64,000 nt of DNA from Marchantia polymorpha subsp. ruderalis (lineage: Eukaryota; Streptophyta; Marchantiopsida; Marchantiales; Marchantiaceae): contig AP031355.1 in assembly GCA_037833965.1 (NCBI GenBank), positions 2,443,501 to 2,507,500 on the forward strand, read 5' to 3'. The position numbers and the translations under genes are program-made. Below, one piece after another: positions 8,987 through 60,560 of this stretch; positions within the stretch are counted from its first letter, which is position 1, and each line of letters starts with the position of its first letter. The notes below the pieces were generated by a model. It did no database searches. It was not told where the DNA came from and saw nothing but the letters and a program-made list of their open reading frames with translations.

Positions 8987-9005
8987 CACTTGGATCCATT
9001 TGATG

Positions 9006-9117
9006 TGTCGTGCGACTCAGTATCGCCATACATCATACATTGCTGACATGCTCTACTCACAACTCAAACATACATACACAAGGAACAAGAGTGTCCACAC
9101 ACAAAGGTATCACAACT
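9006..9117. repeat. Repeat A, first copy
   Basis: This is a 112-bp unit from TGTCGTGCGACTCAGTATCG to GGTATCACAACT. A second copy lies at 9410-9521, separated by repeat B. It may be LTR sequence of the methyltransferase-bearing element. Confidence 0.75.
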
Positions 9118-9409
9118 AAAAGAGATGTCGAAACACAAATACACAAAGAGTCGAGCCAAACTCACTACTCGTAGGTAGATTAAAAGTCGAAGCTAAGGGG
9201 AAAAACCCCGACGCGTAAGGCTCAACTCGAAGAACTGACAGTTCTTCGAGTTTGCCACGAATATAACCCACAGAAGGTGTCGACTCCATCCAACGTTCCT
9301 CGCTTGTCTGCCGCGGCCCAACGTTAGCCGACTCCCAACGTTCCCCGACTCCAATTCGAACTCAACGTGTCTCAACTCAAATCGATCCAACGTCTCGAGC
9401 CATGATAGC
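9118..9409. repeat. Repeat B, first copy
   Basis: This 292-bp unit contains AGAGATGTCGAAACACAAAT near its left end and GTCTCGAGCCATGA near its right end. A shorter copy lies at 18048-18239, which lacks about 90 bp present here. It contains ACTGACAGTTCTTCGAGTTT and several CAACGT words. It may be part of an LTR or an independent short element. Confidence 0.7.
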
Positions 9410-9521
9410 TGTCGTGCGACTCAGTATCGCCATACATCATACATCGCTGACATGCTCTACTCACAACTCACACATACATACACAAGGAACGAGAGTGTCC
9501 ACACACAAAGGTATCACAACT
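9410..9521 (-). repeat. Repeat A, second copy; candidate start of the 3' LTR of the methyltransferase element
   Basis: Read on the minus strand, a purine run (AGGGGGGCGAG) ends just before TTGTGATACCTTTGTGTG, which is the order polypurine tract then LTR start. This makes repeat A (perhaps with B) the best candidate for the element's 3' LTR. The matching 5' LTR was not found on the right side, so the assignment is an inference. Confidence 0.5.
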
Positions 9522-9534
9522 CGCCCCCCTAGCT
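9522..9534 (-). other. Candidate polypurine tract of the methyltransferase element
   Basis: On the minus strand CTAGGGGGGCGA lies directly before the candidate 3' LTR start TGTGATACC. Position and composition fit a plus-strand primer site. Confidence 0.5.
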
Positions 9535-9679
9535 GGCGGTCAGGTCCCTCTGACTCCCAGGTAGCCCTATCTACAACTACATGCTATGCACCTTCGTGGG
9601 TGCGCGAACCAGTAGGCCGGGTGCTATGTCGCCCCATTGTTAGTCGCCTATCTGCAATTCATAACATGTGAAGATCAAG

Positions 9680-10060
9680 TCATCTACCCTCTGAAGTACA
9701 TCGAGGACAAACCCACCGTCCAGTAGGAACAACATCGATAGGTGGAGTCAAGCACGACATGTGCCATCCCCTAAAACACCTATCACACACCAACATATGG
9801 GCCGCCTGATCAGTTGACCCACATAACATGCACCTCAAGCCGGCACGTACAATCGCCAAGCTTGGATCCATAGTACCATCCACGTTTGGGAGGTGGCATG
9901 GCGCACAGTTGCGCACATGATCCTTCCAAACGACACCGTCACGACCCTCCAACATGAGAATTCCAGACGGTAACACCTCTCGCACTCGCAGGATAGTGCG
10001 TCCTGCCGTCACATCCAACTTAGTCGGTGCAGTCTGCTGTAGATAGACGTAGTCTCCCAC
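9680..10060 (-). CDS. Integrase C-terminal region with PHD finger (element part)
   Basis: This 126-residue stretch starts with GDYVYLQQTAP and continues with VREVLPSGILMLEG, which fits the DNA-binding tail of a gypsy integrase. Residues about 77-122 form a PHD finger with C4HC3 spacing: CMLCG, VCDRCFRGWHMSC, then WVCPRC, including the conserved Trp two residues before the seventh cysteine. PHD fingers often read histone H3 tails, so this could steer integration to a chromatin state, much as chromodomains do in chromoviruses. The targeting role is an inference. The domain call is firm. Confidence 0.85.
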   Translation of the reverse strand: MGDYVYLQQTAPTKLDVTAGRTILRVREVLPSGILMLEGRDGVVWKDHVRNCAPCHLPNVDGTMDPSLAIVRAGLRCMLCGSTDQAAHMLVCDRCFRGWHMSCLTPPIDVVPTGRWVCPRCTSEGR

Positions 10061-10096
10061 GCGGAACCTACGAATCGATGGTCGATAACCTCCTCC

Positions 10097-11146
10097 TCAA
10101 ATAGTTGCATACCGCAACGTATCCCGGTGCTGAGCAATCGCAAGGTTCTCAAACGCTGCAGGCATAACTCTCCGAAAGAGCACTGCACGTTGACAACACA
10201 CTCTCACCCACATATCTGGATCATCAAGGTTCACCACCTCGCTAGACTCACGACGAATCGCTGCAGGCAAGTCTGGATCTCGGCCGTACAATATAAAATA
10301 TGGTGAAAACGAAGCCAAGGATGCTTGACGACTGAATCGATATCCCATGGCCAACCATGGTAACTTAATATCCCAGTCCCCAAGATGCCCCTTCTGTAGG
10401 CCGTACTTGCGCAACGCTCTCTTCACCGTCTGTACCATCCGCTCAGCCAAACCATCCGCCTCTGGATAATCTCGGGAAGTAGTCCGGTGATCAATCAGCG
10501 TCTTGTCACACAAGACCTGAAACTCACCCTGAAACTCTGTCCCCTAATCGGTCAACATCTCAGCTGGTGCACCAAAGTGATTAAGCACCCTGTCAAGGAA
10601 AGCATATGCTACTCCCTCACTCGCCTTGTCAGGTAATGCCACCAACTCAATCCACTTGGAGAAATGCTCCACCATCACCAACACATACCGATGATGTCGT
10701 GTAGTCAAGGGTAGTGGTCCAGCAAAGTCCAAACTCCAACGGTAACCCAATCCCATGATAGGTAAGGGATGTAACTCTGGTGTCGGGGCATTGAACGATG
10801 CCCTCACTCGATCACAAACCATGCAACGTGATACCAACTGCTGCACCTGCGTATGCATACCACGCCACCAATACTGACCTAGGAGTAAGCTGTACGTACG
10901 CTTCAATCCAAAATGTCCCAACTCCTCATGAGCATGCCTCACAATGCGTGCTCTGTGAGTTGGATGCGGTACTACCCGTACCCTACCGTCCTCCCACACT
11001 CGGAGAACATGTGCTCCCTCCAATCGGTATCTCTTCGCCCTCTGGAGAACACGATCTCGCTCCTTGGCACCCACTGTGCCTGGCACCATACTGGTCCGTA
11101 GGAACTCCAACACCAACGCATCATCGTGAACATCACGCTGGTCCAC
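10097..11146 (-). pseudogene. Integrase of the methyltransferase element
   Basis: The N-terminal zinc-binding part is visible as HAHEELGHFG followed by CMVCDRVR (HHCC). The catalytic core shows WSLDFAGPLPL (first Asp), EMLTD (second Asp) and EADGLAERMVQTVKRALRK around the Glu. The order and spacing are those of Ty3/gypsy integrases. It is part of a broken element, and the coordinates are for the recognisable span. Confidence 0.85.
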
Positions 11147-11176
11147 ACCACCATCCTCAACCTCAAGATCCGAAGA

Positions 11177-12811
11177 CTAACTATCTACTCTCTGACTAGA
11201 GTAAGATGTCAAGTGGTCCTCACTGCTAGAGGCTCCACAAAACCAACACATGAAGGCCGATGCATGCCAACCGGGCACCATCTCCTCATCAACCTCACCA
11301 TGCCACCTAGCTCCAGTGTCATCCTCTTGGCTAGTGCATGGGTTCCGACTCAAACCGTCGGCATCCAGGTTCGCAACTCCAGGCCTATGCACCACCTGAA
11401 AATCGTACTCCTGTAAGATGAGAGCCCACCGTGCAAGCTTCCCTGTGAGCTTGTCAGACTCCATCAACCACTTGAGCGGTTGATGATCGGTAACAAGGGT
11501 AAACTACGTACCAAACAAGTAACACCTGAAGTGTGCCACAGCCCACACCGCTGCCAAACACTCTACCTCGTACGAACTATACCGCGACTCTGCTGCATTG
11601 TTCGAACGACTAGCGTACGCAATCACAAACTCCTTGCTCTCATCATCACACTGCGTCAACACTGCTCCAAGTCCCAACATACTCCAATCAGTGTGCAACT
11701 GGTATGGTCGACCTCTGATAGGTCTCCTCAATATGGGAGCGGCCACCAACCTGGCCTTGAGCTCAACAAAAGCTCTCTCCTGCTCATCTCCCCATTGCCA
11801 CTCCTGATCCGACTTCAGCAACTGGTTCAAAGGCTTTGCTATAGCACTGAATCCCTTCACATATCTCCGGTAATAGTTCGCCAAACCCATGAATGCACGA
11901 ACTCTACTCACATCCGCTAGACGAGGAATGCGTGCAATAGCCTCCACCTTTGCCTGCTGAACTCCCAAACCACCTAGGTAGATCACATGACCCAAGTACT
12001 CCACCTTCTCCTGGAAGAACCTACACTTCCCAGGATGTAACCGTAGACCATGAGCCCTCAACCGCTCAAGCACAATCTGCAAATGTATCTGGTGTTGCTC
12101 CACTGTGTCGCTAAACACCAAGATATCATCAATGTAACATCTGACGAAATCTAGCCCCGCTAGAATCCTGTCCATCACTCTCTGGAACTCGGCAAGTGCA
12201 TTCTTCAACCCAAAGGGTAAGAATCGCCACTGATACAAACAATCCTTGCCGTGAGAGTTGACACCCCAAAACGCTGTCTTGGCCTTGTCCTCCTCTTGAA
12301 TCGGCAACTGGTGGTATCCCGCCCGAAGATCCAAAGTACTAAAAATTTTCGCATGTCCCACCACATCGAAGATCTCCTCAAACGTAAGCATGGCATACTT
12401 ATCGGCCTTCGTCTGCCGATTGATAGGACGGTAATCTCCACACATCCGCCTATCCGTGTAGTTGCCATGTACATCCTTCTTCGCTGGCATAACAGTGGCT
12501 GAAGCATACTCACCATGCGACAATTCCACTAACCCAGCCTCCAATAACTCCAACGTCCGACTCTTAATCAAGTCCCTTTCCATATCACTATATCGATAGG
12601 GACGACGGAAGATTGGCGTATCACTAGCCAACTCTATCCGTATGGCGGGTCCAATCAAAGTACCCAACTCCTTCATACTGAAGGCAAAACAACTCCTATA
12701 GTCACGTAGGAATTGTATCAACCGTCGTCTCTCTCCTCCGGTGATCTGAGAACCAATCGATGGCTCCCACTCCTCCTCCATGGAGCCACAAGAGGGAGGC
12801 GATACTGTCAC
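11177..12811 (-). pseudogene. Reverse transcriptase and RNase H of the methyltransferase element
   Basis: The RT shows the gypsy motifs MCGDYRPINRQT, FSTLDLRAGYHQL, FLPFGLKNALAEFQRVMD and the catalytic RCYIDDILVFS, then HPGKCRFFQ and VEYLGHVI. The connection and RNase H follow: YQLHTDWSMLGLGAVLTQ (first catalytic Asp), YSSYEVECLAAVWAV and VVHRPGVANLDADGLSR. The run of motifs is complete, but the element as a whole is broken. It lies directly after the methyltransferase frame, as expected for a Gag-Pol polyprotein. Confidence 0.9.
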
Positions 12812-12817
12812 TGGTTG

Positions 12818-14611
12818 CTATGACACCTCCTCCAAAGGAGGGCTCTCCGTACCCTCCTTCGTAGCAACCTCCCCGTGACTAACATCTCCAACTGCATGAG
12901 CGTCTACTCTCGCAAGTCCTCTCGTCACGTCCCATGAACTCCAAGGATGACGAATATCTCGCAAGTCGCCCCCAGCCATTGCCACTACCGTCCCGGTAGG
13001 CAATGAGCTAATAAGTGGTGTAACAACCACCAAATCTGCGCGCAAACGGCGTTGCTCGGCCAAACCCAAGCTCACAATCCACGTCAAGCATTTCAGGTCC
13101 ATAGCCTGACCCAAAACCTGACGACGCGATGCCTCTGAAACTGAAGAAGCCGCGGTCACACCAGTAAGAAACCCCATCGCACGCTCTCTCTCATCAGCGT
13201 TGGGCTCCATCAACTGATGTAGAGTACTGTCCCACAGTAGTCCAGGTCCCCCATCACGATATGCATGTGATGCCGGATAACTGACCAACGTAGGCAAAGC
13301 CATCCGAGGCTGACCTACGTGGTTCACCAATGCCATGGGTGACCTATCCGCCACTCTCACCACCTGAGAGTATCGAGAGACATCCAAGATCTTGTCAACG
13401 GTGAGGGTAGGATCACGATGCACAGAATCATACGCATGACGCAATATCTCTCGTGGTACAAGGTTGGTCCACCACAAACGTGCACGATGAGCACGTGAAC
13501 CAACCCTCGCAGCATCCAACAACACTGTTGATCCAATCCATGCCCTGACCTCATGGACACTCGCCATCAACTGGGCCTGAGTGTCACCCAACAATGGTAT
13601 GTTCTCTAGAATGTATGCAGGAGAACGTGTCTGCTGCTCCTGGAGATGACGTAAGACTCGTAGCATCTCCCAAAACATCCGAGATCTCGGATCATGTAAC
13701 CCTGCTCCATGCCTAGCGCGTGTATGCCCCTGACATGGCCATCCCGCCATCACCAAATCAATATGTCCAACTCGATCGAGGTCTGGCGCCCCCAGCAATG
13801 AAATGTCCGCAGGCAACGCCTTCTGGTATCCTCGAACAGCTAATCGCGGCAACAACAAAGGAAAACGCTGCATCAACTGTGTAACATGTCGTGAAAAAAC
13901 CCGACGTGCAGTCTCGTCCTTCTCCACGTACAAGTATCTACGTACAAGAATACCTGACTGCAACACTGCAGCCAAACCCGTGCTGATCCCTCCAAAAAGA
14001 TCCAGCAAACAAACACCCACTAAGGAATACTCCCATACAATAGGTGTAGTAACTAATGGTGATAGGGTGCTAAGACCACATACTAGCCGACCATCTGAGA
14101 CTCGCTCTGCCTCTGCTGGTAAAGAGGCCTCACTCCAAGCCTTCTTCACCAACCTATCAGCCTCCTGCTGTAATGCGTGGCAAGAATCCCAAAGTGGAAC
14201 ATCCAAAGATGATGACACTGCCGCTGCGAGACTCACCATCTCCTCCATCTCCTCATAGACTGGAGTATCCTCGGCTGACCTGTTCCCCTCCAACAAGTCA
14301 TCAGGCCATGTGAGCACTCCACTGAAACCCGCAATAGAGGCTAAAACTGCAGGAGAAGATCCAAGAGGTCGATCTCGAGAAATGAACCTCACAGGCAGCT
14401 CACTCATACGTCCATCACCGGACTTCCAACCAGGGCGATAAGCTGCCGTCTCCGTCCAATAATCCATCCGAAATCCCATCGGATATAACACCGCTCCACC
14501 AACAAGCACATCATATGACTCTGCTGATGTAACCACCGCTCGAACTCCAAACTGCGAGCTATCCTGAGCATGACCATGCCTCAACTGCACTGATATGCGC
14601 TCTCTGGTCAT
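12818..14611 (-). CDS. Dnmt3-like DNA cytosine-5 methyltransferase domain inside a gypsy polyprotein
   Basis: This open stretch has 597 residues. The first ~60 look like the end of the retroviral-type protease (ESYDVLVGGAVLYPMGF). Residues about 195-520 are a C5 methyltransferase: motif I LLDLFGGISTGLAAVL (about 202-217, AdoMet binding), motif IV AGWPCQGHTRARHG with the catalytic Pro-Cys (292-293), motif VI ILENIPLL with Glu 336, motif VIII GSRAHRARLWWTNL (371-384), and motif X RRQVLGQAMDLKCLTWIV (about 497-514). The AHRARxxWxNL signature and the ordering without circular permutation resemble Dnmt3 more than DRM, CMT or MET1. It would transfer methyl groups from AdoMet to cytosine. Activity is not shown. 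The last ~75 residues are an unassigned linker to the RT. All named catalytic motifs are present although the element is a fossil. Confidence 0.88.
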   Translation of the reverse strand: MTRERISVQLRHGHAQDSSQFGVRAVVTSAESYDVLVGGAVLYPMGFRMDYWTETAAYRPGWKSGDGRMSELPVRFISRDRPLGSSPAVLASIAGFSGVLTWPDDLLEGNRSAEDTPVYEEMEEMVSLAAAVSSSLDVPLWDSCHALQQEADRLVKKAWSEASLPAEAERVSDGRLVCGLSTLSPLVTTPIVWEYSLVGVCLLDLFGGISTGLAAVLQSGILVRRYLYVEKDETARRVFSRHVTQLMQRFPLLLPRLAVRGYQKALPADISLLGAPDLDRVGHIDLVMAGWPCQGHTRARHGAGLHDPRSRMFWEMLRVLRHLQEQQTRSPAYILENIPLLGDTQAQLMASVHEVRAWIGSTVLLDAARVGSRAHRARLWWTNLVPREILRHAYDSVHRDPTLTVDKILDVSRYSQVVRVADRSPMALVNHVGQPRMALPTLVSYPASHAYRDGGPGLLWDSTLHQLMEPNADERERAMGFLTGVTAASSVSEASRRQVLGQAMDLKCLTWIVSLGLAEQRRLRADLVVVTPLISSLPTGTVVAMAGGDLRDIRHPWSSWDVTRGLARVDAHAVGDVSHGEVATKEGTESPPLEEVS

Positions 14612-14653
14612 CCTGTAAGACCTGTCGCTGGTGCCACCGAGTGATGTCTGAAT

Positions 14654-15223
14654 CTAGAACGGACAAGGCTCCAACTCGGACCTCCGAACTCCCAAACTAA
14701 TGCAGGCAATCTTGCCCAACATCAAAGGCTGTGCACCAGAATCCAGCAACACTCTGGCTAGGACATACACCTGCAATGTAGCACTCACCAAGCGAAATAC
14801 ACCGCTCCGGTTGTCCACCATACACACACCAGGGACAACCCTCTCCCGATCAATGGCTTGTCGGGCTGGCAAGGACTCCATCCGTGCCGCTGCCGCCTGC
14901 CATGTCGACTCATCGCTCGATGGAGTCGTAGAGGATAGCTCCTCACCACTAGTCTCGCCTATGTCGGCACTCGTAACAGGGATACTCCCACGTTCACACA
15001 ACGTGGCTGCTGCACGAAAAACCCGAGCCAAGTCAATCCTAGAGTCCATCAGCTCCATAGCTGAAAATAATGGAGATCTCATCACTGAGCTAGCCATCCG
15101 CATCACTGCACTAGATGGTGTGTCCGTGTCCACCACACGTGACGTAGATGTCTCAGTACTCCCACTAAGGCCACTAGGTGGTACAGGTCTCATGGATGAA
15201 GTACTGCCCACCTCTGACAGCAA
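14654..15223 (-). pseudogene. Aspartic protease region of the methyltransferase element
   Basis: RVLLDSGAQPLMLGK contains the DSG-type active-site motif of retropepsins, preceded by VFRLVSATLQVYVLA. The second half of the protease fold appears to continue at the start of the methyltransferase frame (YDVLVGG). The upstream ~150 residues, rich in Ser and Thr, are not recognised. Confidence 0.7.
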
Positions 15224-15960
15224 AAACGACTAGATGATATCACCACCAAAGATCCACTATCTGCCACACCCCGCGCCTCTACAACCACTGATGCGCTAGG
15301 ATGAGGTAGCCGATACCTCAACTCACTCCACGTAAATCCTCCACGGTCCTCAACGGAACCCCCAAACTCCTCCGTGATGACTGACTCACCAATCGGCACC
15401 ACTGCCACAACTCCACCTGCCCTCGTCCCTGCACTAACCTGCTCTAGCCCTACTGACCATGGGTATGGGCAACCTAACCTGTCATCACCGCAAGAAGACT
15501 CTCCTGGTCCACTGGTCATCACTCCAGTCTCACCATGAGAGAAGCAAAGATAGGCGCCGGTGATCAAATCCAGCCGCACTATTGACAGCACACTGGAGTA
15601 AAACTACTCCGGAAATCAACGTCAACCCAGACATGGGCGCGCATCAAGAAGCCAGACTGGAGAGGATCCAAACACAAGAAAAACGGCTAGCAACGACTCT
15701 CCAGCCGAAATGAAACACAGCACAGAACAACACAACACACGGGACATCGCCTCGCATCGCGACCCCGAGTCGAACTCCATCGCCTCCTATCATCCTCCGC
15801 CTCTCGCGCCTGCAACGCTATCTCACTCATCCCGTCGCAAAGATGATATCCACCCTTCCACCTCCAGCGCCTACAATGTAACCTCTTCCACTAAGTCGCC
15901 AAGAGAATCTCCACTCCGAGTTGTCCCGCACTGCGCCTCATAACTCCACTTCGCACTACC
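15224..15960 (-). other. Unrecognised 5' part of the methyltransferase element
   Basis: A minus-strand open stretch continues to 15591 (IVRLDLITGAYLCFSHGET), with no family recognised. From 15592 to about 15960 the sequence is C-rich on the plus strand with no open frame of note, and at about 15960-16020 composition shifts to AT-rich. A gag zinc knuckle, a primer-binding site and a 5' LTR were looked for and not seen. Confidence 0.4.
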
Positions 15961-16528
15961 AATAGGGGCAAGGAATATCAAACTGTCTATCTACCCTAAC
16001 CGTTCCCCATAAGAAAAGAGATACGGATAAAATTTATGTTTCCACCACTTCAACAAACCTACACACTAAGCACTAAAATTTTTAATATAAGTTTGACCAC
16101 GTCATATGTATAGGAGTACAATGTCTTCACAACCAAAAATAAAATAAAAATATATAAATATAAAATCCTATAGTTCCCTTCAGAATATTCCTCAATAATA
16201 TATTCACTTTGTGACTCTTGAAAGAGCACAATATCTTCAACTATATCTAGAATCGGAATGTTCTCCTCAAGGTGCCAATAATTGTACCCCCCTCACTGAA
16301 TGTCAACGCTTGATATTCAATCAGCTAAGGAATGTTCAGTTCTGCCATGTGGGTAAACTAGGGTTCTTTCACTCTGGAGAAAGCAAAAAAAATACTGGAA
16401 TAACACACAAAGGCTTGTAATTACGAACTCTGCAGGTGGATATATCGTAAAATAAAATGAAATCCTCAAGATATCACACTAATCTTGTTCAAGCTTCTGC
16501 TTCGTTGTATGACTGCTGCGCACGTGGT
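15961..16528. other. AT-rich stretch without a gene
   Basis: The composition is AT-rich from about 16020, with short A/T runs and no convincing open frame. It leads into the G3BP-like pseudogene. Confidence 0.6.
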
Positions 16529-17325
16529 GGAAAATGCCTTCGAAAACCAGTAATACTATGCACAGCACTCCCAACGTTGTACACCGCTTCTACGCTGACG
16601 ATAGAAGACTTAACCGGGCCGAAGCAAGAGCAGATGGCGCCGTTGAGACATTCTTTTTGCAACGTGAGATCGACGAGAAGGTCATGTCTCTGGATTACTG
16701 TGATGTCAAGGCAAACAATTTTGCTGTAGACTCGTAGTCTTCGTTCTTTGGTGGAGTGCTTGCTATAGTTACAGGATTCCTATCCAGCAAGATTATTGGT
16801 AAGAGGAATTTTGTACATGGCTTCTTCTTGGCTCCCCAAGCGAAGGGCTACTACGTTTTAACTGATATCCTCAGGTATCTTGACGAGAAGCCCATCGCGA
16901 GCAAGTCACTAGCTGTTCTTGCGAATGGCATCTCAGAGCCCACTCCTGTGATAGACGAGCCCCTTCTTCTATGGCAGAACCCGCAGCTGCTGTCCTACCT
17001 ACGGAAGAGACTTTCGGATGAGTGCCAGAAAAATCTTATGCATCCATTCTTCGGCATCGGACCGCTGGGACTTCTCTGTCGTCTCCACTTACAATGCAGC
17101 TCCCAAAGCTGCTACTCCTACGCCTTAACGACCTGACGTGTCTTCTAGATTATTAACCATGCCCCGCAGCAACTCTCGGTGGCCAGGATAGTTTGGAAGA
17201 AGGTTTACTCAACGAGAACGAAGTCGACGGAAGGTCGGTTTACGTGAAGAATCTACCTATGGTAGTGACGCCTTCTCAAATTGCAAACCTGGATGCGAAG
17301 TTCAACTGCAAAGCAGTTTAAATAA
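16529..17325 (+). pseudogene. G3BP-like NTF2/RRM protein pseudogene
   Basis: Three pieces match the order of a plant G3BP-like (Ras-GAP SH3-binding protein-like) RNA-binding protein. Near 16529 VVENAFENQ and YYAQHS match the start of the NTF2 domain. From about 16574, NVVHRFYADDRRLNRAEARA and EKVMSLDYCDVKANNF continue it. From about 16747, FGGVLAIVTGFLSSK and GFFLAPQAKGYYVLTDILRY finish it. At 17228-17320 GRSVYVKNLPMVVTPSQIA matches the first strand and helix of an RRM. Breaks visible: a stop inside the first NTF2 segment (near 16556), a frameshift near 16570, a stop at about 16735, and loss of most of the linker and of the rest of the RRM. In intact family members NTF2 and RRM are separated by a long disordered linker. 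The closeness of the pieces here could mean a processed or internally deleted copy. Confidence 0.75.
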
Positions 17326-18047
17326 CAAAGAGCAACAGATCAGAATGAAATTGCACTGCAGTCCCAGACTTCAATTGTTCGCAATTCGCAGTTCGCAGAC
17401 TCTCACTGAATGAAGCCCAATTCAAGTATCTTTCCCACAGCATACGAGCATGTTTTACTCAAAGCCTTTCCCAAAAACTTATTCTTCGCATCCTCGAGAA
17501 CTCACGACTAAAATTAATTCACCAACCCCATCATCACCACCAAGCCAGACGAAGGATCTCAGCTCCTGAACAATGGCCGACTCGCAGACTTGAAATGTCA
17601 TCCCTGTTCAAGCATCGCCATTGAGCACCAAATATGTCGATTATGACCTGAATAGTTCACTACTTCACGTCGAAAGGTAATGTATAAATCGTCGAATCAG
17701 TCGCCATGGGCTGCAATCAGGTTTCCGAGATCACTTCTGTACGAAGGTCCGTAACTCAAGCTCTCAATGTCCAGTGCGGCATTTCTATCATTTGCTACTC
17801 AGGTCGAATTTGCACATTCTTTCAGTTAAGTTCCGACTTCACGTAAAATTGCATCCAGAATACTGTGACTATCATGTCGTACTTATGAACATCTCCAAGT
17901 TCTATCTGCATACTAGTAGCTGGAGCCAATCGATCTCTCCCCCCACCGACCATTCCAAGACGCCCTTCCGACAAATAAAGCTCTCGAGAAACAAGTTCTG
18001 ACTGCAAAATTCACCTCACCGATAGATTACACGCAGTTCTTTGAGAT
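17326..18047. other. No gene recognised
   Basis: The base composition is mixed. A 75-codon plus-strand open frame at 17774-18001 has no recognisable features and overlaps a minus-strand frame of similar length. Both are probably chance. Confidence 0.5.
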
Positions 18048-18239
18048 AAAGAGATGTCGAAACACAAATACACAAAGAGTCGAGCCAAACTCACTACTCG
18101 TAGGTAGACTAAAAGTCGAAGCTAAGGGGAAAAACCCCGACGCGTAAGGCTCAACTCAAAGAACTGACAGTTCTTCGAGTTCGCCACGAATATAACCCAC
18201 AGAAGGTGTCGACTCCATCCAACGTCTCGAGCCATGACA
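18048..18239. repeat. Repeat B, second copy
   Basis: It shares AGAGATGTCGAAACACAAAT through GTCTCGAGCCATGA with 9118-9409, without a ~90-bp inner block. AGATG occurs at both edges, at the left overlapping GAGATG and at the right following CCATGAC, which could be a 5-bp target duplication. That would make this a short independent insertion. Confidence 0.65.
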
Positions 18240-18749
18240 GATGCTATATTAATCAATTCTATTTTATCTTGAATGATTTAAATTTCAGTTCTTCTGAACT
18301 GAAAAATACCAAAATTTTATAAGTAATTGTTTCAAAATTTAAAAATTACATTCAATTATGATTTTAAACAATAATTTAGAATAAAAAATGAAGAGACTTA
18401 AATAAAACTTTATTCTTAAAACTCAAGAATAAAATTAAAGAGATATGATTATAATCTTCTCTTCAATTCCATTATTTTTATAAAACATTTCCATTTTCAT
18501 TTATTGTTAAGAAAAGATTATTGAAAATAACAATTTAATTTAACTTTTTTACTTTTCTAGTTAATATCAGCAAGATTTCAAATAAACATAACTTCATGAA
18601 TGAAAATATAAAAAAACGTCCACATCAAACATGATGTGAATACAACATAGAACACTTAGGGCTTGACCTGGAAGTCCCATGCCAATCCATAGTACTTAAG
18701 CGCCTCATGCTTGTAACAATGGACACAATTTCACACTTCTGCAACTTCA
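18240..18749. other. AT-rich stretch without a gene
   Basis: It is strongly AT-rich up to about 18620, with long A/T runs. It becomes balanced just before the SUVH-like frame. No motif could be supported. Confidence 0.6.
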
Positions 18750-20770: not shown

Positions 20771-23700
20771 ATGACCTTCGACCGGGCGGCGGAGAACGTC
20801 CCATTCTTGAATTCGCGATTCCAATCTCTTGTGCGCGCTGCGCGCATCCATCTGCTGGCTGCGGAACATTCTCGACGTCGTCGCACAGGAGATTTCTTGT
20901 TGATTGAGGGAGAAGTGAGTGCGCGTGATTTGGAATTGAGGGCGATTAGAGTTTGCCGAGAGAGAAAGAAGCGCGGGCAATGCGGAAGTAGAATGAGCGG
21001 GCGAGCGAACCTCAGGAACGCAATGACGAGACCGAGCAGATTGCGGATGGTGCCACTTCGCCTGCCGCAGAACGGGCTGCGCGCTTTTGAGGAGCGCTTA
21101 ATAGCAAGAAAGCTCGATTTCTTGCTATGGGGATGGAATTACATCTGTGCGAATATGGTGCGCGAGTGGCTAGAGCCACAGGGACCACCCTCGCGCGGAT
21201 TGCGTCCGCATGTTGACCGGTGGACAGTCCAAGATTGGGCGCAGGCGTTGGGAAGATGTGCTGGCATGCCAGGGCATCTCCTTTTCGACAGTGAGAGCAT
21301 CAAGGTGACCAAGCAAGAAGAGGCGCAATTTGTGGAGCTGTTCAAGACCGGGAGGTCTACCAAGAATGGGTACAGGACCCGTGATTACAAGGATCGATTT
21401 CGCCGGACTTTGTCCGCGGCGCTGATGCAATTACTGCAGCCGCACCGCGCCTGCTACATCACATTGTGGCAGGTCTCTTTTGTGGAGTGCGTCATCGAGG
21501 GAACTCCAATTCACTGGGCGAGCATCCTGCACAGGGTGATGCGACAGCACGCGTTTGAGGAGAAGGGGGGAACTCTAAACCATCTTTCTCCTTTCCTCAT
21601 CAATTTTTATCGACAGCGGAATTGTTTGACAGCGGCGGAGCTTGAACATTTTCCGCCATTGTCCATCGACCATCCCGGGAAGTATGTGCGGGAGAACGAG
21701 GTCGATACTGATGCAGAGGAGTCACCGACTTCTACCCCATCAAGACGGAGGGACGAAGGGAGACACACCCCTGCAGCGCGAGTGCCGCGGAAGCGGCGAT
21801 GGAGGGAAGAGTCCGAAGAGGAGCAGCATCAAGAACCCTCTGCTCCCATTCGACCGCGGCCGCTGTGCGAGCCATACAGCCGGCCGAAGCAGAAGGCACG
21901 CAGACTGGTGTTGCCAGCTGACAGTGCAGACACGGCGACAATTGCGACGGAGTTAGGAAGTGCGTCGCCAGAGAGGCATGAGGAAGCGCGGACGACCGCA
22001 GGAGCAACGGGCCACGCTGCAACCTCGACGGGAGAGAGGCCGCCTACGGGCCAAGGGCCTCCGGAGTTACCACGTGCGATGCGGACAGATGTTCCGTTTG
22101 CGCACAGACGAGCCTCCGCGGACGGACGAGCCTCCGCGGACCGGCGAACACAAGTGGACGTGGATCTACGCTTACGCGTGGGAAGGAGCAGTCCGCCTGT
22201 GCACAGGACACCTCCACACGTGCCGCCTGTGCACAGGCAAGAATCACCCCCGTTCCAACGCAGGAAGGGGAAGGAGCCGGCGGAAGAACCGCCTACGAGA
22301 CACCGGCCCTCGGGGCCAGACCCTCCGGCGCACCACGCGCCGCAATTTGCGCCTTCGGCGCCAGGGCCTTCGAGCCGAGGAGATACGAGCAGAGAGCGTG
22401 CGGAGGCCGCACCATCGGCGGGAAGTCCGCCGATAGATGCGCCTTCGGCGGTAGGGCCTATAGGCCAAGGAACATCGGGCGTGCGGCCCCCGGTCATGTC
22501 GCCTTCGGCGATAGATGTCCGCGGCGCTACGCCTGCGACGGACAAGGCGCCGGCAAATGCGCCTGCGCACGGGCCGGGCACAGCCCCCACGGACCGATCA
22601 AGGGAGCAGCAGACGATGGAGCGGAGTGACTGTCCGCGGGATGAAATCTCGATGCGCGATGCGCAATCAAACCCCGCGCAGCCACCCTCCGCTCAATCGC
22701 CTTCGGCGGCGGACGACGGAGACAGAGAGGACGCGGTAGACAATCAACAAGCGAGAGACGGGGATGCCGCACGGGTACATTCGCCTTCCGCCTTAGACAT
22801 TTTGGCGACGAGCAGCGAGGCTGCAGCCGTGCCTTCGCAGGCAGCACACGTCGACGACGTGCAGCCCCACTCGGGGCAGTCGCCGATGCAATCAATGGCG
22901 ACTGAAATTCTCCACTCGGATGATGACGACGGAGGCTCCACGGAAGAAATGTCAGGAGCAGAAGACACCGAGGAGGAGGAGGAGGAAACTGTTGGAGCGC
23001 CGGCGGCGGCGCTCTCTGAGCAGGTGATTCCGTTGCTGCGGTACTTGGATCGCAAGGTCGATAAATACGCCGACCCACTCCAGCCGGGATCTTACATCGA
23101 GTTAGTGCGCAGGCGGACTCGCACTAAAGTCCACACCAGCAAGCTATTAGCTAGAGTGGACCAGGAGTTGAGGGACTTGAAGGAGAAGCATGCGTGCTTG
23201 TGGGGTCAGTACAAGCTTAATCAGAAGTTCTACAAGCACACCGAGAAGATGAAGGATGAGAAACTGGGCGAGCTCACCAAGGAGCAGGTGAAGGTCAAGG
23301 AAGCACTCATTTCTGAGCAGGCCCAGAATCGGATTTTGTCAGAGGAGCTCGTGCGACAGACGCGGTTGTTGGAACAATGTTAGCTCGCACGGCAGGCGGA
23401 TGAAGAGTTAATCCGCAGGTTGCAGTCAGAGTGTGGCGAATTGAGAGCGCAACGTGCTGAAGCCGAATCGCAATTAGTGATAATTGAAGAGGATCGCAGG
23501 AAGGAGGCGGATCGCACGAAGGTGGAAACGGCGAGGCGAGTCGCCCACTGTCTCAAGGGCTACGCCCACTGGGAAGTGAAGGCGCAGGAGAAACTCACAC
23601 TGCGTGAGTTTGAATTGCGCGCAGCCGGGTTGTTGTCAGGCGACAGTAGGAGTCGGCGGAAGGTAGCGAAGAAGCTCGAGGCCTTTCTGTCGAAGGCACA

Positions 23701-27342: not shown

Positions 27343-30300
27343 ATGACCTTCGACCGGGCGGCGGAGAGCGTCCCATTCTTGAATTCGCGATTCCAATCTC
27401 TTGTGCGCGCTGCGCGCATCCATCTGCTGGCTGCGGACCATTCTCGACGTCGTCACACAGGAGATTTCTTGCTGATTGAGGGAGAAGTGAGTACGCGTGA
27501 TTTGGAATTGAGAGCGATTAGAGTTTGCCGAGAGAGAAAGAAACGCGGACAGTGCGGAAGTAGAATGAGCGGGCGAGCGAACCCCAGGAACGCAATGGCG
27601 AGACCGAGCAGATTGCGGATGGTGCCACTTCGCCTGCCGCAGAACGGGCTGCGCGCTTTCGAAGAGCGCTTGATAGCAAGAAAGCTCGATTTCTTGCTAT
27701 GGGGATGGAATTACATCTGCGCGAATATGGTGCGCGAGTGGCTAGAGCCACAGGGACCACCCTCGCGCGGATTGCGTCCGCATGTTGACCGGTGGACAGT
27801 CCAAGATTGGGCGCAGGCGTTGGGAAGATGTGCTGGCATGCCAGGGCATCTCCTTTTCGACAGTGAGAGCATCAAGGTGACCAAGCAAGAAGAGGCGCAA
27901 TTTGTGGAGCTGTTCAAGACCGGGAGGTCTACCAAGAATGGGTACAGGACCCGTGATTACAAGGATCGATTTCGCCGGACTTTGTCCGCGGCGCTGATGC
28001 AATTACTGCAGCCGCACCGCGCCTGCTACATCACATTGTGGCAGGTCTCTTTTGTGGAGTGCGTCATCGAGGGAACTCCAATTCACTGGGCGAGCATCCT
28101 GCACAGGGTGATGCGACAGCACGCGTTTGAGGAGAAGGGGGGAACTCTAAACCATCTTTCTCCTTTCCTCATCAATTTTTATCGACAGCGAAATTGTTTG
28201 ACAGCGGCGGAGCTTGAACATTTTCCGCCATTGTCCATCGACCATCCCGGGAAGTATGTGCGGGAGAACGAGGTCGACACTGACGCAGAGGAGTCCCCGA
28301 CTTCTACCCCATCAAGACGGAGAGACGAAGGGAGACACACCCCTGCAGCGCGAGTGCCGCGGAAGCGGCGATGGAGGGAAGAGTCCGAAGAGGAGCAGCA
28401 TCAAGAACTCTCTGCTCCCATTCGACCGCGGCCGCTGTGCGAGCCATACAGCCGGCCGAAGCAGAAGGCACGCAGACTGGTGTTGCCAGCTGACAGTGCA
28501 GACACGGCGACGATTGCGACGGAGATAGGAAGTGCGTCGCCGGAGAGGCGAGAGGAAGCGCGGACGACCGCAGGAGCGACGGGCCACGCTGCAACCTCGT
28601 CGGGAGAGAGGCCGCCTACGGGCCAAGGGCCTCCGGAGTTACCACGTGCGATGCGGACAGAGGTTCCGTTTGCGCACAGGCGAACCTCCGCGGACGGACG
28701 AGCCTCCGCGGACCGGCGAACACAAGTGGACGTGGATCTACGCTTACGCGTGGGAAGGAGCAGTCCGCCTGTGCACAGGCGCTCGCCTGTGCACAGGTCG
28801 CCTGTGCACAGGTCACCTGTGCACAGAACACCTCCGCACGTGCCGCCTGTGCACAGGCAAGAATCACCCCCGTTCCAACGTAGGAAGGGGAAGGAGCCGG
28901 CGGAAGAACCGCCTACGAGACACCGGCCCTCGGGGCCAGACCCTCCGGCGCACCACGCGCCGCAATTCGCGCCTTCGGCGCCAGGGCCTTCAAGCCGAGG
29001 GTATACGAGCAGAGAGCGTGCGGAGGCCGCACCATCGGCGGGAAGTCCGCTGATAGATGCGCCTTCGGCAGTAGGGCCTATAGGCCGAGGAACATCGGGC
29101 GTGCGGCCCCCGGCCATGTCGCCTTCGGCGATAGATGTCCGCGGCGCTACGCCTGCGGCGGACAAGGCGCCGGCAAATGCGCCTGCGCACGGGCCGGGCA
29201 CAGCCCCCACGGACCGATCGAGGGAGCAGCAGACGGAAGAGCGGAGTGACTGTCCGCGGGACGACATCTCGATGCGCGATGCGCACTCCAACCCCGCGCA
29301 GCCACCCTCCGCTCGATCGCCTTCGGCGACGGACGACGGCGACAGAGAGAATGCGGGAGGCAATCAACAAGTAAGCGACGGGGATGCCGCGCGGGTACAT
29401 TCGCCTTCCGCCTTAGACATTTTGGCGACGAGCAGTGAGGCCGCAGCCGTGCCTTCGCAGGCAGCACACGTCGAGGACGTGCAGCCCCACTCGGGGCAGT
29501 CGCCGACGCATTCAATGGCGACTGAAATTCTCCACTCGGATGATGACGACGGAGGCTCCACGGAAGAAATGTCAGGAGCAGAAGACACCGAGGAGGAGGA
29601 GGAGGAAATTGTTGGAGCGCCGGCGGCGGCGCTCTCTGAGCAGGTGATTCCGTTGCTGCGGTACTTGGATCGCAAGGTCGATAAATACGCCGACCCACTC
29701 CAGCCGGGATCTTACATCGAGTTAGTGCGCAGGAGGACTCGCACTAAAGTCCACACCAGCAAGCTATTAGCTAGAGTGGACCAGGAGTTGAGAGACTTGA
29801 AGGAGAAGCATGAGTGCTTGTGGGGTCAGTACAAGCTTAATCAGAAATTCTACAAGCACTCCGAGAAGATGAAGGATGAGAAACTGGGCGAGCTCACCAA
29901 GGAGCAGGTGAAGGTCAAGGAAGCACTCATTTCTGAGCAGGCCCAGAATCGGATTTTGTCAGAGGAGCTCGTGCGACAGACGCGGTTGTTGGAACAATGT
30001 CAGCTCGCACGGCAGGCGGATGAAGAGTTAATCCGCAGGTTACAGTCAGAGTGTGGCGAATTGAGGGCGCAACGTGCTGAAACCGAATCGCAATTAGTGA
30101 CGATTGAAGAGGATCGCAGGAAGGAGGCGGATCGCACGAAGGTGGAGACGGCGAGGCGAGTCGCCCACTGTCTCAAGGGCTACGCCCACTGGGAAGTGAA
30201 GGCGCAGGAGAAACTCACACTGCGTGAGTTTGAATTGCGCGCAGCCGGGTTGTTGTCAGGCGACAGTAGGAGTCGGCGGAAGGTAGCGAAGAAGCTCGAG

Positions 30301-30495
30301 GCCTTTCTGTCGAAGGCACAGGATACCATGTCCGCCCTCGAGGGGGAGGTGTCCGCGGCGTTGCAGCGGTTGGGACTGCGCAGTCGAGCGGAAGAGTGGC
30401 AGGGTAGAGAGTTAGTGCGCGGCAGTCGGCCGCGTAGGAGACGTAGTACAGGTTCCGCGGAGTGTAGTGTAGCGTGGTTCCGTGCAGGCGTGTAG
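27343..30495 (+). CDS. LTR-encoded protein of family G, 1,050 residues (5' LTR copy)
   Basis: The family is not recognised with confidence. Residues 1-300 are a compact conserved part (LPQNGLRAFEERLIARKLDF, IHWASILHRVMRQHAFEE, LSPFLINFYRQRNCLTAAE) that loosely recalls the 'putative plant transposon protein' domain found beside some plant gypsy elements. Residues about 310-720 are proline-rich and low in complexity, with PVHR units encoded by palindromic repeats. An acidic stretch follows (SDDDDGG, TEEEEEE). Residues about 790-1010 are a predicted coiled coil (SEQAQNRILSEELVRQTRLL, ELIRRLQSECGELRAQRAE). The tail is basic (RGSRPRRRRSTG). No signal peptide or membrane segment is visible, so it is not an envelope. 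There is no zinc knuckle. A structural or gag-like role, or a regulator, is possible. Confidence 0.85.
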   Translation: MTFDRAAESVPFLNSRFQSLVRAARIHLLAADHSRRRHTGDFLLIEGEVSTRDLELRAIRVCRERKKRGQCGSRMSGRANPRNAMARPSRLRMVPLRLPQNGLRAFEERLIARKLDFLLWGWNYICANMVREWLEPQGPPSRGLRPHVDRWTVQDWAQALGRCAGMPGHLLFDSESIKVTKQEEAQFVELFKTGRSTKNGYRTRDYKDRFRRTLSAALMQLLQPHRACYITLWQVSFVECVIEGTPIHWASILHRVMRQHAFEEKGGTLNHLSPFLINFYRQRNCLTAAELEHFPPLSIDHPGKYVRENEVDTDAEESPTSTPSRRRDEGRHTPAARVPRKRRWREESEEEQHQELSAPIRPRPLCEPYSRPKQKARRLVLPADSADTATIATEIGSASPERREEARTTAGATGHAATSSGERPPTGQGPPELPRAMRTEVPFAHRRTSADGRASADRRTQVDVDLRLRVGRSSPPVHRRSPVHRSPVHRSPVHRTPPHVPPVHRQESPPFQRRKGKEPAEEPPTRHRPSGPDPPAHHAPQFAPSAPGPSSRGYTSRERAEAAPSAGSPLIDAPSAVGPIGRGTSGVRPPAMSPSAIDVRGATPAADKAPANAPAHGPGTAPTDRSREQQTEERSDCPRDDISMRDAHSNPAQPPSARSPSATDDGDRENAGGNQQVSDGDAARVHSPSALDILATSSEAAAVPSQAAHVEDVQPHSGQSPTHSMATEILHSDDDDGGSTEEMSGAEDTEEEEEEIVGAPAAALSEQVIPLLRYLDRKVDKYADPLQPGSYIELVRRRTRTKVHTSKLLARVDQELRDLKEKHECLWGQYKLNQKFYKHSEKMKDEKLGELTKEQVKVKEALISEQAQNRILSEELVRQTRLLEQCQLARQADEELIRRLQSECGELRAQRAETESQLVTIEEDRRKEADRTKVETARRVAHCLKGYAHWEVKAQEKLTLREFELRAAGLLSGDSRSRRKVAKKLEAFLSKAQDTMSALEGEVSAALQRLGLRSRAEEWQGRELVRGSRPRRRRSTGSAECSVAWFRAGV
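28766..28859. repeat. Cluster of GCCTGTGCACAGGC palindromes inside the LTR frame
   Basis: Copies of the palindrome (core TGTGCACA) lie 15 bp apart and encode PVHRRSPVHRSPVHR in frame. The matching cluster in the 3' LTR (39955-40033) is one 15-bp unit shorter, so the array has changed since this insertion. Confidence 0.9.
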
Positions 30496-31600: not shown

Positions 31601-34432
31601 ATGTCGACTGGGGCTGGCGGGAGCAACCTAAGTGCTAGAGCTGTCCGCAAGTTCCGACGAGATTCAGAGAAGGCCGTGGAAGAGACACGGCGTCAAAACA
31701 AGAAAACACCAAAAAGAGTACCTAAGCCTAGTTCGGCCGACGCCCTTGGGGAACCTACCCCCGACGACTCGGAACCAAACTTGGTGCTTACAGTTCTACT
31801 AGATATTCCTTGCACGGACCCGCCTAGTGAAGGAGAACCGACCGCCCGAAGACCGTCGACAGACACACCGATGGCGGACGGACAAGCCAATGTGCGGCTA
31901 CCTCAGCCGATTACTAAACATTCCTACCCGAAGTACAAAGGGAGTGGGGATGACGACGATGCAGATTCATACATCAAGTTGTTCGAGTCGGTGTCTATTG
32001 CCAATCGCGAGATCGCAGACGACGACCGACTAAGGATCTTTCCAAGCCTTCTGCGGAAGAAAGCGAGGAGTTGGTATAATCACGAGAGCATCGATCCGAC
32101 TGGGTTGACAACATGGGCCCAGCTGAAGGAGAAGTTCCTGCGCCGTTTCCGCGAGCTCGGCTACGACAGCCGGGTTTTGACAAAGTTACGTAATTTGCAG
32201 CGAGAGAAGAAGGAGAGTCTGCGTGACTACACTGAGAGATTTCTGGACCTTCTCGACAGAATACCGAAAACAGGACCAGGGTCCCCTTTCTCGGTACAAC
32301 AAGCTGTGGATTGGTACGTGACCGGTTTAACTCGGGAGATGGAGACTTTTTGCCGACGCAGCAAGTGCGACACTATTGAGGACGTGATTGCATCGGCAGA
32401 AGCCTTCGAAACTTCCACTCTCAACCGAAGAGGGAGAGAGAGACGGGAGTCGAAGGAACGAAAACCGAAGGGGGGGCGAAGACGACGTAGAGGTACAACT
32501 CCGTCATCGGAGGAATCGTCTTCGGACGAGAACCGTTCTTCATCCGAAGAAGAGGAAACCTCATCGTCGGAGGAGGAGAAGAAGAGGAAGAAGCATGGGT
32601 CAGCGAAGAAAAAGGGCATCCGACGAGTGACTACGGACAGAGCGCCGGGAGATATAGCTTCGAAGATGGAGACCCTTGTGAAGGACTTCGCCGATCTCAA
32701 GGTTCAAGTGGTAGGCGGGCATGATCGCAGAAAATCACCCGGGAGAGTGCGAGCGAACTTATGGTGTACTACGTGCGGGGCGGTGGGACATGCAAACACC
32801 GAGTGCCTTACCACCCGGCCGTCATATCCAGTCAACGCAGTAGAGTGGGCGCAACCGTACTATGGAGAGCACCCTCAGTACTATGGAGAGGCTAGCGAAG
32901 AGACAGCCTACGCCGTCCAGTCGGTTCCTACCCCTCCTGCAGTTTCAGCAATGCAAGTCCCACGATATATTCCGGTGGATCGGGCCACTACGGTACCTGT
33001 GAGGCGGAGAGCACCTCCAGGGACGTTTGACCCACCGCCACCGCGAGCTTGTTATAATTGCGGGGAAGTTGGGCACTTCTCACCGCAGTGTCCCCATCCA
33101 AAAAGGCGAAACGATTATGCTCCGACATGTAGTAATTGCAAGAAGGTCGGGCACACTGCGCCAGAGTGTGATCAGCCACCGGTCCCTCGGCCAGTGGTAC
33201 GATTTGTGAACACTCCTGCCAAGGAGGACGTGCAAGTTAACCAGGTCGAAGTAGGTTCAGACGGGGATGGCGAAGACGAAGAATGGCCGGCTGAAGAGGT
33301 TATGTGCGCACGGGTCGAAACTCGTAGCTCCAAGAAATCCAAGGAGCAAGAGCGTGACACTCGCAAGCACGAACGGAGAACCGCCGACCGGACGGGAAAA
33401 GGAAAGGAGAAGACATCCAGCAAGTCCGACTCGCGACCTGCTCGGAAGACTTCGGCTACGCGGGAGGCACCAGCAGTGCGCCCCCAGACAGCAGTCGAGG
33501 ACGAGCCAGTGCGCCTACTGAAACGTGACTATGCTCCGGATATCCGCAACGAGGTAGCCAACCTGTTGCAGGAAGCGATCCGCACGCAAAAGGACCCACC
33601 GCGGCCAGACTTGACATCCTCCCTTGGGGCGAAGTTGGCAGTCACCATGGAACCTCGCAGAGCGTCGCCGACCCCGGCGACCCAACGCGCCCACTATGAC
33701 TTGGTTGAAGATCTCGGGAGTCGAAAAGTGAACATCACGTTCAAGCAGCTCTTGGAGGACAATAAGACGTATCGGAGAATGTTGATGCTTTCGCTACGGC
33801 ATCCGCGGAAGCCGCGCGCATCCACATCCTCTCAAGTATATCAAGTGGAGAGCGAAGACCAAGGGCCACCCGAGATCGATGTAGAGATCGCAGGGTGTTG
33901 TGTACGCAGAGTGCCAATCGACTCTGGATCAGGAGTCAACATAATGACGGAGGATACAGCGAGGGCCTTGGGGTACAGTCAATACGAACCTTCGAAGCGT
34001 GTGTTGAGATTGGCGGATCAGACGCGGAGAATGCCTGCAGGTATGCTGCGCAATGTCAAGACAACCATCGGGGGTGCGGACTTTCGGTTGACGTATATCA
34101 TCCTTCAACCGATGATGAAGCAGGGCTATGACGTTCTGCTCGGGCGACCATGGCTATATGGTGCACAAGTCAGATGTGATTGGCGAAGACATCGCCTTAA
34201 GTTTCCTCACCCTTCGGAACCGACCAAAACCATTACGGTACCCTGGAATAGGGTCAGGCACGAAGGAGAGACCCCATCGACAAGTGCAGGTTACACATCG
34301 GGCGAGGACAGTGAGTCGACCGCGCGATCGGATTCCAGTGGTACCGAATCCGATTACTTCGTGGGATTCGTTGCCTGCTGTTCGGTGGAAGAAGAAGAAG
34401 AGCCGGAAGCTATTCAGCCGGAAGACGAATAG
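31601..34432 (+). CDS. gag: Gag-protease of family G, 943 residues
   Basis: The ATG is the first after the primer-binding site. Residues about 105-260 are a Retrotrans_gag capsid domain (ARSWYNHESIDPTGLTTWAQ, LKEKFLRRF, SLRDYTERFLDLLDRIP). After a Ser/Glu/Lys-rich stretch come three CCHC zinc knuckles: CTTCGAVGHANTEC, CYNCGEVGHFSPQC and CSNCKKVGHTAPEC, which bind RNA. Near residues 763-855 is the aspartic protease (RVPIDSGSGVNIM, YDVLLGRPWLYG). The frame ends in UAG, followed by CAA UUA and the pol frame in the same phase. The copy at 60558-63392 is nearly identical in layout. Confidence 0.95.
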   Translation: MSTGAGGSNLSARAVRKFRRDSEKAVEETRRQNKKTPKRVPKPSSADALGEPTPDDSEPNLVLTVLLDIPCTDPPSEGEPTARRPSTDTPMADGQANVRLPQPITKHSYPKYKGSGDDDDADSYIKLFESVSIANREIADDDRLRIFPSLLRKKARSWYNHESIDPTGLTTWAQLKEKFLRRFRELGYDSRVLTKLRNLQREKKESLRDYTERFLDLLDRIPKTGPGSPFSVQQAVDWYVTGLTREMETFCRRSKCDTIEDVIASAEAFETSTLNRRGRERRESKERKPKGGRRRRRGTTPSSEESSSDENRSSSEEEETSSSEEEKKRKKHGSAKKKGIRRVTTDRAPGDIASKMETLVKDFADLKVQVVGGHDRRKSPGRVRANLWCTTCGAVGHANTECLTTRPSYPVNAVEWAQPYYGEHPQYYGEASEETAYAVQSVPTPPAVSAMQVPRYIPVDRATTVPVRRRAPPGTFDPPPPRACYNCGEVGHFSPQCPHPKRRNDYAPTCSNCKKVGHTAPECDQPPVPRPVVRFVNTPAKEDVQVNQVEVGSDGDGEDEEWPAEEVMCARVETRSSKKSKEQERDTRKHERRTADRTGKGKEKTSSKSDSRPARKTSATREAPAVRPQTAVEDEPVRLLKRDYAPDIRNEVANLLQEAIRTQKDPPRPDLTSSLGAKLAVTMEPRRASPTPATQRAHYDLVEDLGSRKVNITFKQLLEDNKTYRRMLMLSLRHPRKPRASTSSQVYQVESEDQGPPEIDVEIAGCCVRRVPIDSGSGVNIMTEDTARALGYSQYEPSKRVLRLADQTRRMPAGMLRNVKTTIGGADFRLTYIILQPMMKQGYDVLLGRPWLYGAQVRCDWRRHRLKFPHPSEPTKTITVPWNRVRHEGETPSTSAGYTSGEDSESTARSDSSGTESDYFVGFVACCSVEEEEEPEAIQPEDE

Positions 34433-34438
34433 CAATTA
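34430..34438 (+). promoter_or_regulatory. Candidate gag-pol read-through site, UAG CAA UUA
   Basis: gag-protease and pol are in the same phase with only this stop between them. UAG followed by CAA UUA fits the CAR-YYA context known to promote read-through in tobamoviruses. The same nine bases separate gag and pol in the other copy (60552-60560). Read-through at a gag stop is established in gammaretroviruses. Its use here is an inference from the conserved arrangement. Confidence 0.65.
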
Positions 34439-34441
34439 ACT

Positions 34442-60548: not shown

Positions 60549-60551
60549 CGT

Positions 60552-60560
60552 TAATTGCTA
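60552..60560 (-). promoter_or_regulatory. Candidate gag-pol read-through site, UAG CAA UUA (second copy)
   Basis: It has the same nine bases and the same phase relation between gag and pol as at 34430-34438. Confidence 0.65.

Follow-up and report, generated by a model that had tools for sequence, protein, structure and literature searches.

Why should a transposon carry an enzyme of the kind used for silencing transposons? For algae, de Mendoza et al. (2018; PMC5890265, cited here and below from part of its text) put forward this still open question, and a locus of the liverwort Marchantia polymorpha poses it again, in a stretch of 64,000 nucleotides of contig AP031355.1 (the window). An earlier note, made from the letters of the window, placed a Dnmt3-like cytosine methyltransferase inside a gypsy polyprotein, between protease (PR) and reverse transcriptase (RT). 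We found that the element, itself decayed, belongs to a large gypsy-type family that was active recently. This methyltransferase-bearing family is young, occurs in many copies in a liverwort and has been under selection, which makes the question testable in a land plant. M. polymorpha is a model plant for which transformation and methylome methods are routine.

Identity of the methyltransferase

The minus-strand ORF at 12818-14611 was confirmed exactly at these coordinates and encodes 597 aa, containing the second half of a retropepsin and a complete Dnmt3-like C5-methyltransferase. Since the first 115 residues or so belong to the retropepsin, the methyltransferase proper is restricted to about residues 186-527. 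The DSG half of the retropepsin lies upstream and is cut off in the window copy by an in-frame stop at 14656. Residues 283-378 match the Pfam model PF00145 (E-value of 3.2e-07; score of 30.5 bits, where the cut-off is 22), and the catalytic Cys (PC) and the Glu-Asn pair (EN) of C5 cytosine methyltransferases are present. All 29 PDB sequences matched with E-values up to 0.001 were DNMT3A, 3B or 3C (best 1.5e-09). In a PDB profile search, DNMT3 sequences occupied the top 29 of 57 rows with 58-79 bits; DNMT2-type tRNA methylases also matched, weakly (14.5-24.7 bits). The catalytic domain of DNMT3A/3B is the best match for both sequence and fold, with 21-24% identity, and the catalytic loop of the predicted model (residues 291-300) is poor, with a pLDDT of 52.

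All motifs named by the earlier note are present in the order it gave (I, then IV, VI, VIII and X), and its main claim, that of a Dnmt3-like methyltransferase, is thus borne out by the Pfam and PDB matches. The domain does not belong to DRM, whose motifs are rearranged, while motif I here precedes the others. It shares with DNMT3A/3B the unrearranged order and a DNMT3-like motif VIII, but its motif IV reads PCQ where DNMT3A has PCN in the PDB alignment, and for this reason we call it Dnmt3-like rather than a DNMT3 member. Neither PWWP nor ADD was found among the Pfam matches of the element.

Structure of the element

The element spans 9006-18239 on the minus strand, with the same 4-bp target duplication on both sides (Table 1). 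It has the protease, the RT-RNase H-integrase order and the DDE integrase (rve) of Ty3/gypsy elements, as well as TG...CA termini with a short target duplication. We name it only gypsy-type because it lacks plain long terminal repeats at both ends. The window copy is decayed. It lacks most of gag and has stops within the protease, the RNase H, the integrase and the integrase tail; its matches from 15157 to 9698 all fall in one frame. Uninterrupted copies are present elsewhere in the genome. Within the space of the missing gag, the opposite strand (16500-17136, plus strand) encodes a piece that by eye resembles the NTF2 part of a G3BP-type protein.

Table 1. Parts of the gypsy-type element in the window, in the 5' to 3' order of the element.
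Feature	Position	Strand	Remark
4-bp target-site duplication CATC, 5' side	18240-18243	.	
5' terminal repeat, block B, starting TGTCATGG	18047-18239	-	98% direct repeat over 178 nt
ORF1 remnant in a different frame	15232-15399	-	matches residues 1-56 of P0008, 91%
ORF1 piece that includes the first retropepsin half (DSG at 14735-14743) and closes with an in-frame TAG	14654-15223	-	
ORF with retropepsin C-terminal half (residues ~1-115), spacer, methyltransferase and variable tail	12818-14611	-	
Dnmt3-like C5-methyltransferase domain (residues 186-527)	13031-14056	-	
TAG-CAA-CCA at the end of ORF1, in the RT frame	12812-12820	-	fits the leaky-stop motif TAG-CAR-YYA
Reverse transcriptase (RVT_1) and RNase H	11504-12811	-	Pfam
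Integrase zinc-binding domain and first part of core (rve)	10544-11146	-	Pfam
Remaining integrase, set off by an in-frame stop	10097-10513	-	no Pfam match of its own; aligns to L013 ORF2
C-terminal part of the integrase, including a PHD finger (9698-9832)	9680-10060	-	Pfam
Polypurine tract AGGGGGGCG, directly before block A	9522-9530	-	
3' terminal repeat, block A, 112 bp	9410-9521	-	
3' terminal repeat, block B, 290 bp	9118-9407	-	joined to A by 2-base GC
Second block A, ending GCACGACA at the 3' end of the element	9006-9117	-	
4-bp target-site duplication CATC, 3' side	9002-9005	.	

Copies in the host genome, selection and decay

In the host genome (241 Mb, 9 contigs), at least 73 near-full-length copies were found (73 scored of 860 candidates, each covering almost the entire query). 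They are distributed over all 9 contigs, which rules out a one-off insertion, contamination or misassembly. The copies form two groups, one with 90-97% identity (besides the window copy itself) and another with 86-88%. When the genome was searched with PF00145, 123 of 290 candidates were scored as matches. Of these, 77 are not among the 73 copies, and the merged lists comprise 150 distinct loci on all contigs, a few of which are presumably host enzymes. RT copies were scored as well (97 of 3665 candidates): a methyltransferase match lies on the same strand no more than 4 kb upstream of 82 of them, and in 57 of those 82 a full-length match lies within 521 bases. The order PR-methyltransferase-RT, which the earlier note proposed to look for elsewhere in the genome, is therefore carried by many copies, and neither of the findings that it thought would speak against its claim (no C5 methyltransferase match, or an insertion confined to one copy) was obtained. 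A query with the integrase tail and PHD finger gave 150 scored genome matches of 546 candidates.

We fetched 53 of the 73 copies, 39 from group 1 and 14 from group 2. Between the groups, the methyltransferase has a dN/dS of 0.16 (NG86; dN 0.040, dS 0.27), a figure drawn from 546 pairs that span one single split and are not independent. The corresponding values are 0.18 for the protease, 0.23 for the spacer and 0.68 for the variable tail. For RT the median is 0.086 and the pooled value 0.53, the latter probably disturbed by frame-broken copies. Within groups the ratio is 0.44 in group 1 and 0.21 in group 2, the higher value in group 1 being expected for decaying copies. The motif IV Cys is conserved in 52 of the 53 copies, while the motif VI Glu and Asn and the motif VIII His are present in all of them. 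The methyltransferase domain is free of stops in 33 copies and interrupted in the other 20. Five other copies were picked for having both ends listed, among 40 scored of 640 candidates; comparison of their two B repeats shows 0, 3, 1, 1 and 1 differences over 287-290 sites. Given the low dN/dS and these nearly identical repeats, the methyltransferase domain has been kept by selection and the element has moved recently. A ratio computed from sequences can show just that the domain was kept, and says nothing more about the role suggested by the earlier note, that of marking the element itself or its target.

Across copies, 78 stops were classified, and the commonest changes behind them are CAG-to-TAG (19) and CGA-to-TGA (14). 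Between nearest copies, C/T-type differences affect 1.85% of CG, 1.81% of CHG and 0.96% of CHH cytosines (unpolarised, from pairs that are not independent). This excess at CG and CHG, about twice the CHH value, fits the decay of methylated, silenced copies, and host enzymes would explain it equally well. Strong CpG depletion was dropped as evidence of methylation, the composition figures being ambiguous through strand skew.

The junction between methyltransferase and reverse transcriptase

The earlier note had RT directly after the open stretch of the methyltransferase. The two do not form one uninterrupted stretch: between them lies a TAG (12818-12820), in frame with the RT ORF and followed by CAA-CCA. 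The same in-frame TAG is found at the junction in 52 of the 53 fetched copies, with no stop in the remaining one. After it come CAA-CCA in 46 copies, CAA-CTA in 3, CAA-CAA in 2 and CTA-ACA in 1, so that 49 of the 53 carry TAG-CAR-YYA (35/39 in group 1 and 14/14 in group 2). By comparison, these copies have 78 further in-frame stops ahead of the junction, and CAR-YYA follows none of them. TAG-CAR-YYA is a readthrough signal known from TMV and SIRE1, with TAG-CAA-TTA being the TMV form. Here the same signal stands at the PR-MTase/RT junction, where readthrough is predicted.

Agreement within groups is partly due to recent common descent, and the informative comparisons are those between groups, with L013 and with another gypsy lineage. 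The bases preceding the stop differ between groups 1 and 2. In L013, a relative with 37-40% identity in the ORF, the junction reads TAG-CAA-TCA. Two other, more distantly related gypsy elements of the window, at 31601-37273 (plus strand) and 58104-63392 (minus strand), have no methyltransferase and are near-copies of each other, with about 32% identity to L013 in ORF2. Both have gag-PR, then TAG-CAA-TTA, then RT-IN, all in frame. The mere presence of the motif is uninformative, since the window has 4 sites against 2.88 expected by chance, but 3 of these 4 lie exactly at a PR(-MTase)/RT junction, which is informative.

The in-frame TAG in nearly all copies and its leaky context in most of them place the enzyme at the end of ORF1, ahead of RT. 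As far as the reading frames indicate, the methyltransferase is the last domain of ORF1 (gag-PR-MTase), and RT-RH-IN-PHD is probably made by readthrough of a leaky TAG. The claimed position between the protease and RT of a gypsy-type element thus stands, but not the placement inside the Pol part of a single polyprotein. Not every member of the wider family has the leaky stop, since in P0055, a relative from a metagenome, a single ORF with no stop spans methyltransferase and RT.

Terminal repeats and integration

In the 6 copies examined, the terminal repeats follow the layout B ... A-B-A, with block B only at the 5' end and A-B-A at the 3' end, and a simple LTR model was dropped. Identical 4-bp target duplications flank all six, the window copy included. 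In the window copy, the 5' block B is about 95 bp shorter than the 3' one. Such split direct repeats are those of DIRS/PAT elements, but membership in that group was rejected, as the integrase is of the rve type rather than a tyrosine recombinase and 4-bp target duplications are present. Four of five fetched copies, and also L013, have CACGACA-GC-TGTC at the A-B joint; the fifth has GT in place of GC, and the window copy has GC-TATC. A polypurine tract stands before block A.

A circle with two A-B units, if cut at one A-B joint, would yield exactly B ... A-B-A. The combination of split repeats, DDE integrase and 4-bp duplications points to an unusual route, in which the element would insert from an intermediate that is circular or tandem. 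One genome locus (C5:31860225-31861145) reads A-B-A-B-A.

In five of five fetched copies (L072, L074, L076, L078 and L080), a primer-site-like stretch of 12 bases, CTCGAAGAACTG, directly follows the 5' block B and is exactly complementary to CAGTTCTTCGAG, a part of B; it is altered in the window copy. This complementarity would allow self-priming, for which the retrotransposon Tf1 offers a comparison. Block B also contains a hairpin of which these 12 bases are one arm, and the match may therefore be nothing more than a repeat.

Relatives and descent

A protein search returned 71 proteins, from 7995 candidates scored. By source name, sorted by eye, 25 come from M. polymorpha (spanning several annotation releases and therefore not 25 loci), 4 from Calypogeia fissa, 3 from Sphagnum and 1 from Riccia sorocarpa, and 38 carry no host name. 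Protease and methyltransferase are joined in P0026. The methyltransferase and RT are in one protein in P0055 and in the Marchantia gene model P0015, which may splice over the TAG junction.

L013 is a contig binned as a Synechococcales cyanobacterium and is probably a eukaryotic contamination of that bin. Its ORF1 (1162 aa, open at the 5' end) has the order gag-PR-MTase, with CCHC zinc knuckles recognised by eye, a weak protease match and the methyltransferase; no gag match was found there by Pfam. ORF2 contains RT, RNase H, integrase and PHD. Identity with the window is 37% for ORF1 and 63% for ORF2. A viral origin was rejected after a scan of viral contigs gave 12 loci, all weak (26-36% identity over query segments). 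A bacterial origin was likewise rejected, the 5 loci of the contig scan being 4 weak ones in Streptomyces plus L013 itself.

In a tree of 34 rows, from which Riccia is absent, Sphagnum and Marchantia form a group that leaves out Calypogeia (support 99/93). Simple vertical descent with the hosts is not supported by this tree, and the grouping hints at horizontal transfer or at old paralogous lineages.

Comparison with known systems

The earlier note regarded methyltransferase capture by retrotransposons as rare, and this one is not without precedent. The closest is KnitGypsy-Dnmt3 of Klebsormidium nitens, a gypsy element with a Dnmt3-related domain (PMC5890265). The accessible text of that paper describes gypsy domains, an unrearranged Dnmt3-related domain with its key residues kept, purifying selection (Ka/Ks < 0.2) and a DIRS-like repeat arrangement (Fig. 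4 legend), all of which are shared by the liverwort family. The two differ in that the DNMT of KnitGypsy-Dnmt3 lies in the Pol ORF, whereas that of the liverwort family ends ORF1 before a conserved TAG. KnitGypsy-Dnmt3 copies are also fewer than those in Symbiodinium, while the liverwort family has at least 73 and lives in a land plant. The liverwort integrase bears a PHD finger, and the words "PHD" and "protease" are absent from the main text of PMC5890265, figures aside. The capture of DNMTs by retrotransposons was therefore known from algae (PMC5890265), and what is seen here is its occurrence in a land plant, at the end of ORF1 before a TAG, with a PHD finger on the integrase. According to PMC5890265, the KnitGypsy-Dnmt3 DNMT is an independent acquisition in the K. 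nitens lineage. The shared repeat layout makes a single lineage with the liverwort family likelier, the two being likened by published description and not by sequence.

The dinoflagellate elements SymbioDIRS-Dnmt3 and SymbioLINE-Dnmt also encode DNMTs (PMC5890265), but are of the DIRS (tyrosine recombinase) and LINE types, whereas the liverwort family has RT-RH-DDE integrase and 4-bp target duplications. In a yeast assay, de novo CG methylation was reported for SymbioDIRS-Dnmt3 enzymes but not for SymbioLINE-Dnmt or KnitGypsy-Dnmt3, negatives that the authors call inconclusive because human DNMT3B was inactive there too (PMC5890265). The present family sits in an apparent bryophyte (compare PMC12344493, PMC6453930 and PMC6338049).

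Possible role of the enzyme

We suggest, with a confidence slightly above even, that a gag-PR-MTase protein ending at a leaky TAG is made at the Gag level, packaged, and methylates the element's own DNA de novo. Most ribosomes would stop at the TAG and some would read through, and the methyltransferase would thus be made at the Gag level, far above RT, so that its position before the leaky stop predicts a particle-level dosage. Gag would carry the enzyme into the particle, and there or later, freed by PR cleavage or still fused, it would act on the element DNA, be it the cDNA or a freshly joined copy. A new insertion would then arrive pre-marked, benefiting the element by passing as native silenced DNA or by doing less damage. 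The activity of SymbioDIRS-Dnmt3 in yeast (PMC5890265) would, by analogy, speak for this explanation. Against it stand the negative result of KnitGypsy-Dnmt3 in the same paper, the PCQ of motif IV, the poorly modelled catalytic loop, the junction of P0055, and the one copy without a stop and three with altered contexts among the 53. More tentatively, and with doubts that clearly outweigh our confidence, the family might represent an ancient streptophyte gypsy-type lineage, reaching from algae to liverworts and mosses, that packages a Dnmt3-like enzyme at Gag stoichiometry. Its DDE integrase would insert a circular two-repeat intermediate cut at CACGACA-GC-TGTC; with the intermediate methylated first, every new copy would be born methylated.

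The enzyme could instead act in trans, on the host genome or the target site, by way of the integrase PHD finger. Insertion sites would then be methylated, and the element would moderate its own harm or exploit silencing. PHD fingers read histone H3, and one is present at the integrase C-terminus of both the window element and L013, with the many genome matches of the tail query pointing the same way. The enzyme and the finger, however, are in different ORFs, which a leaky stop would express at unequal levels. No coupling between the two is obvious, and we think this action in trans improbable, though worth keeping in sight. Methylation of RNA (of the element or tRNA) rather than DNA seems less probable still. 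It is discussed for the LINE-borne DNMT in PMC5890265, agrees with the yeast result of KnitGypsy-Dnmt3 (where human DNMT3B failed too), and finds an echo in the DNMT2-type matches, but these score far below the DNMT3 proteins in the same search.

That the domain is a functionless passenger, or a one-off insertion into a single copy, we consider scarcely credible. The stops in the domain of 20 copies would suit a passenger, but the dN/dS between subfamilies and the conserved catalytic residues contradict it, as the 73 scored copies contradict a one-off event. The TAG itself might be an ordinary terminator, with ORF2 made by reinitiation, splicing or a separate RNA. A same-frame stop alone proves nothing, the motif occurs in the window at numbers near chance, and the P0015 model joins both sides of the junction, perhaps by a predicted splice. 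The precise location of the motif at the junction in three window gypsy elements (two of them near-copies) and in L013, its frequency among the fetched copies and its absence after the other in-frame stops make this reading of the TAG quite unlikely.

Other repeats in the window

On the plus strand, three long and very similar ORFs were found at 20771-23383, 27343-30495 and 38532-41669, with no Pfam match in the two that were scanned. The C-terminal tail of the two longer ones is also the end of a truncated RT-IN ORF in the element at 58104-60548. The three ORFs may be part of a repeat unit or a chimera.
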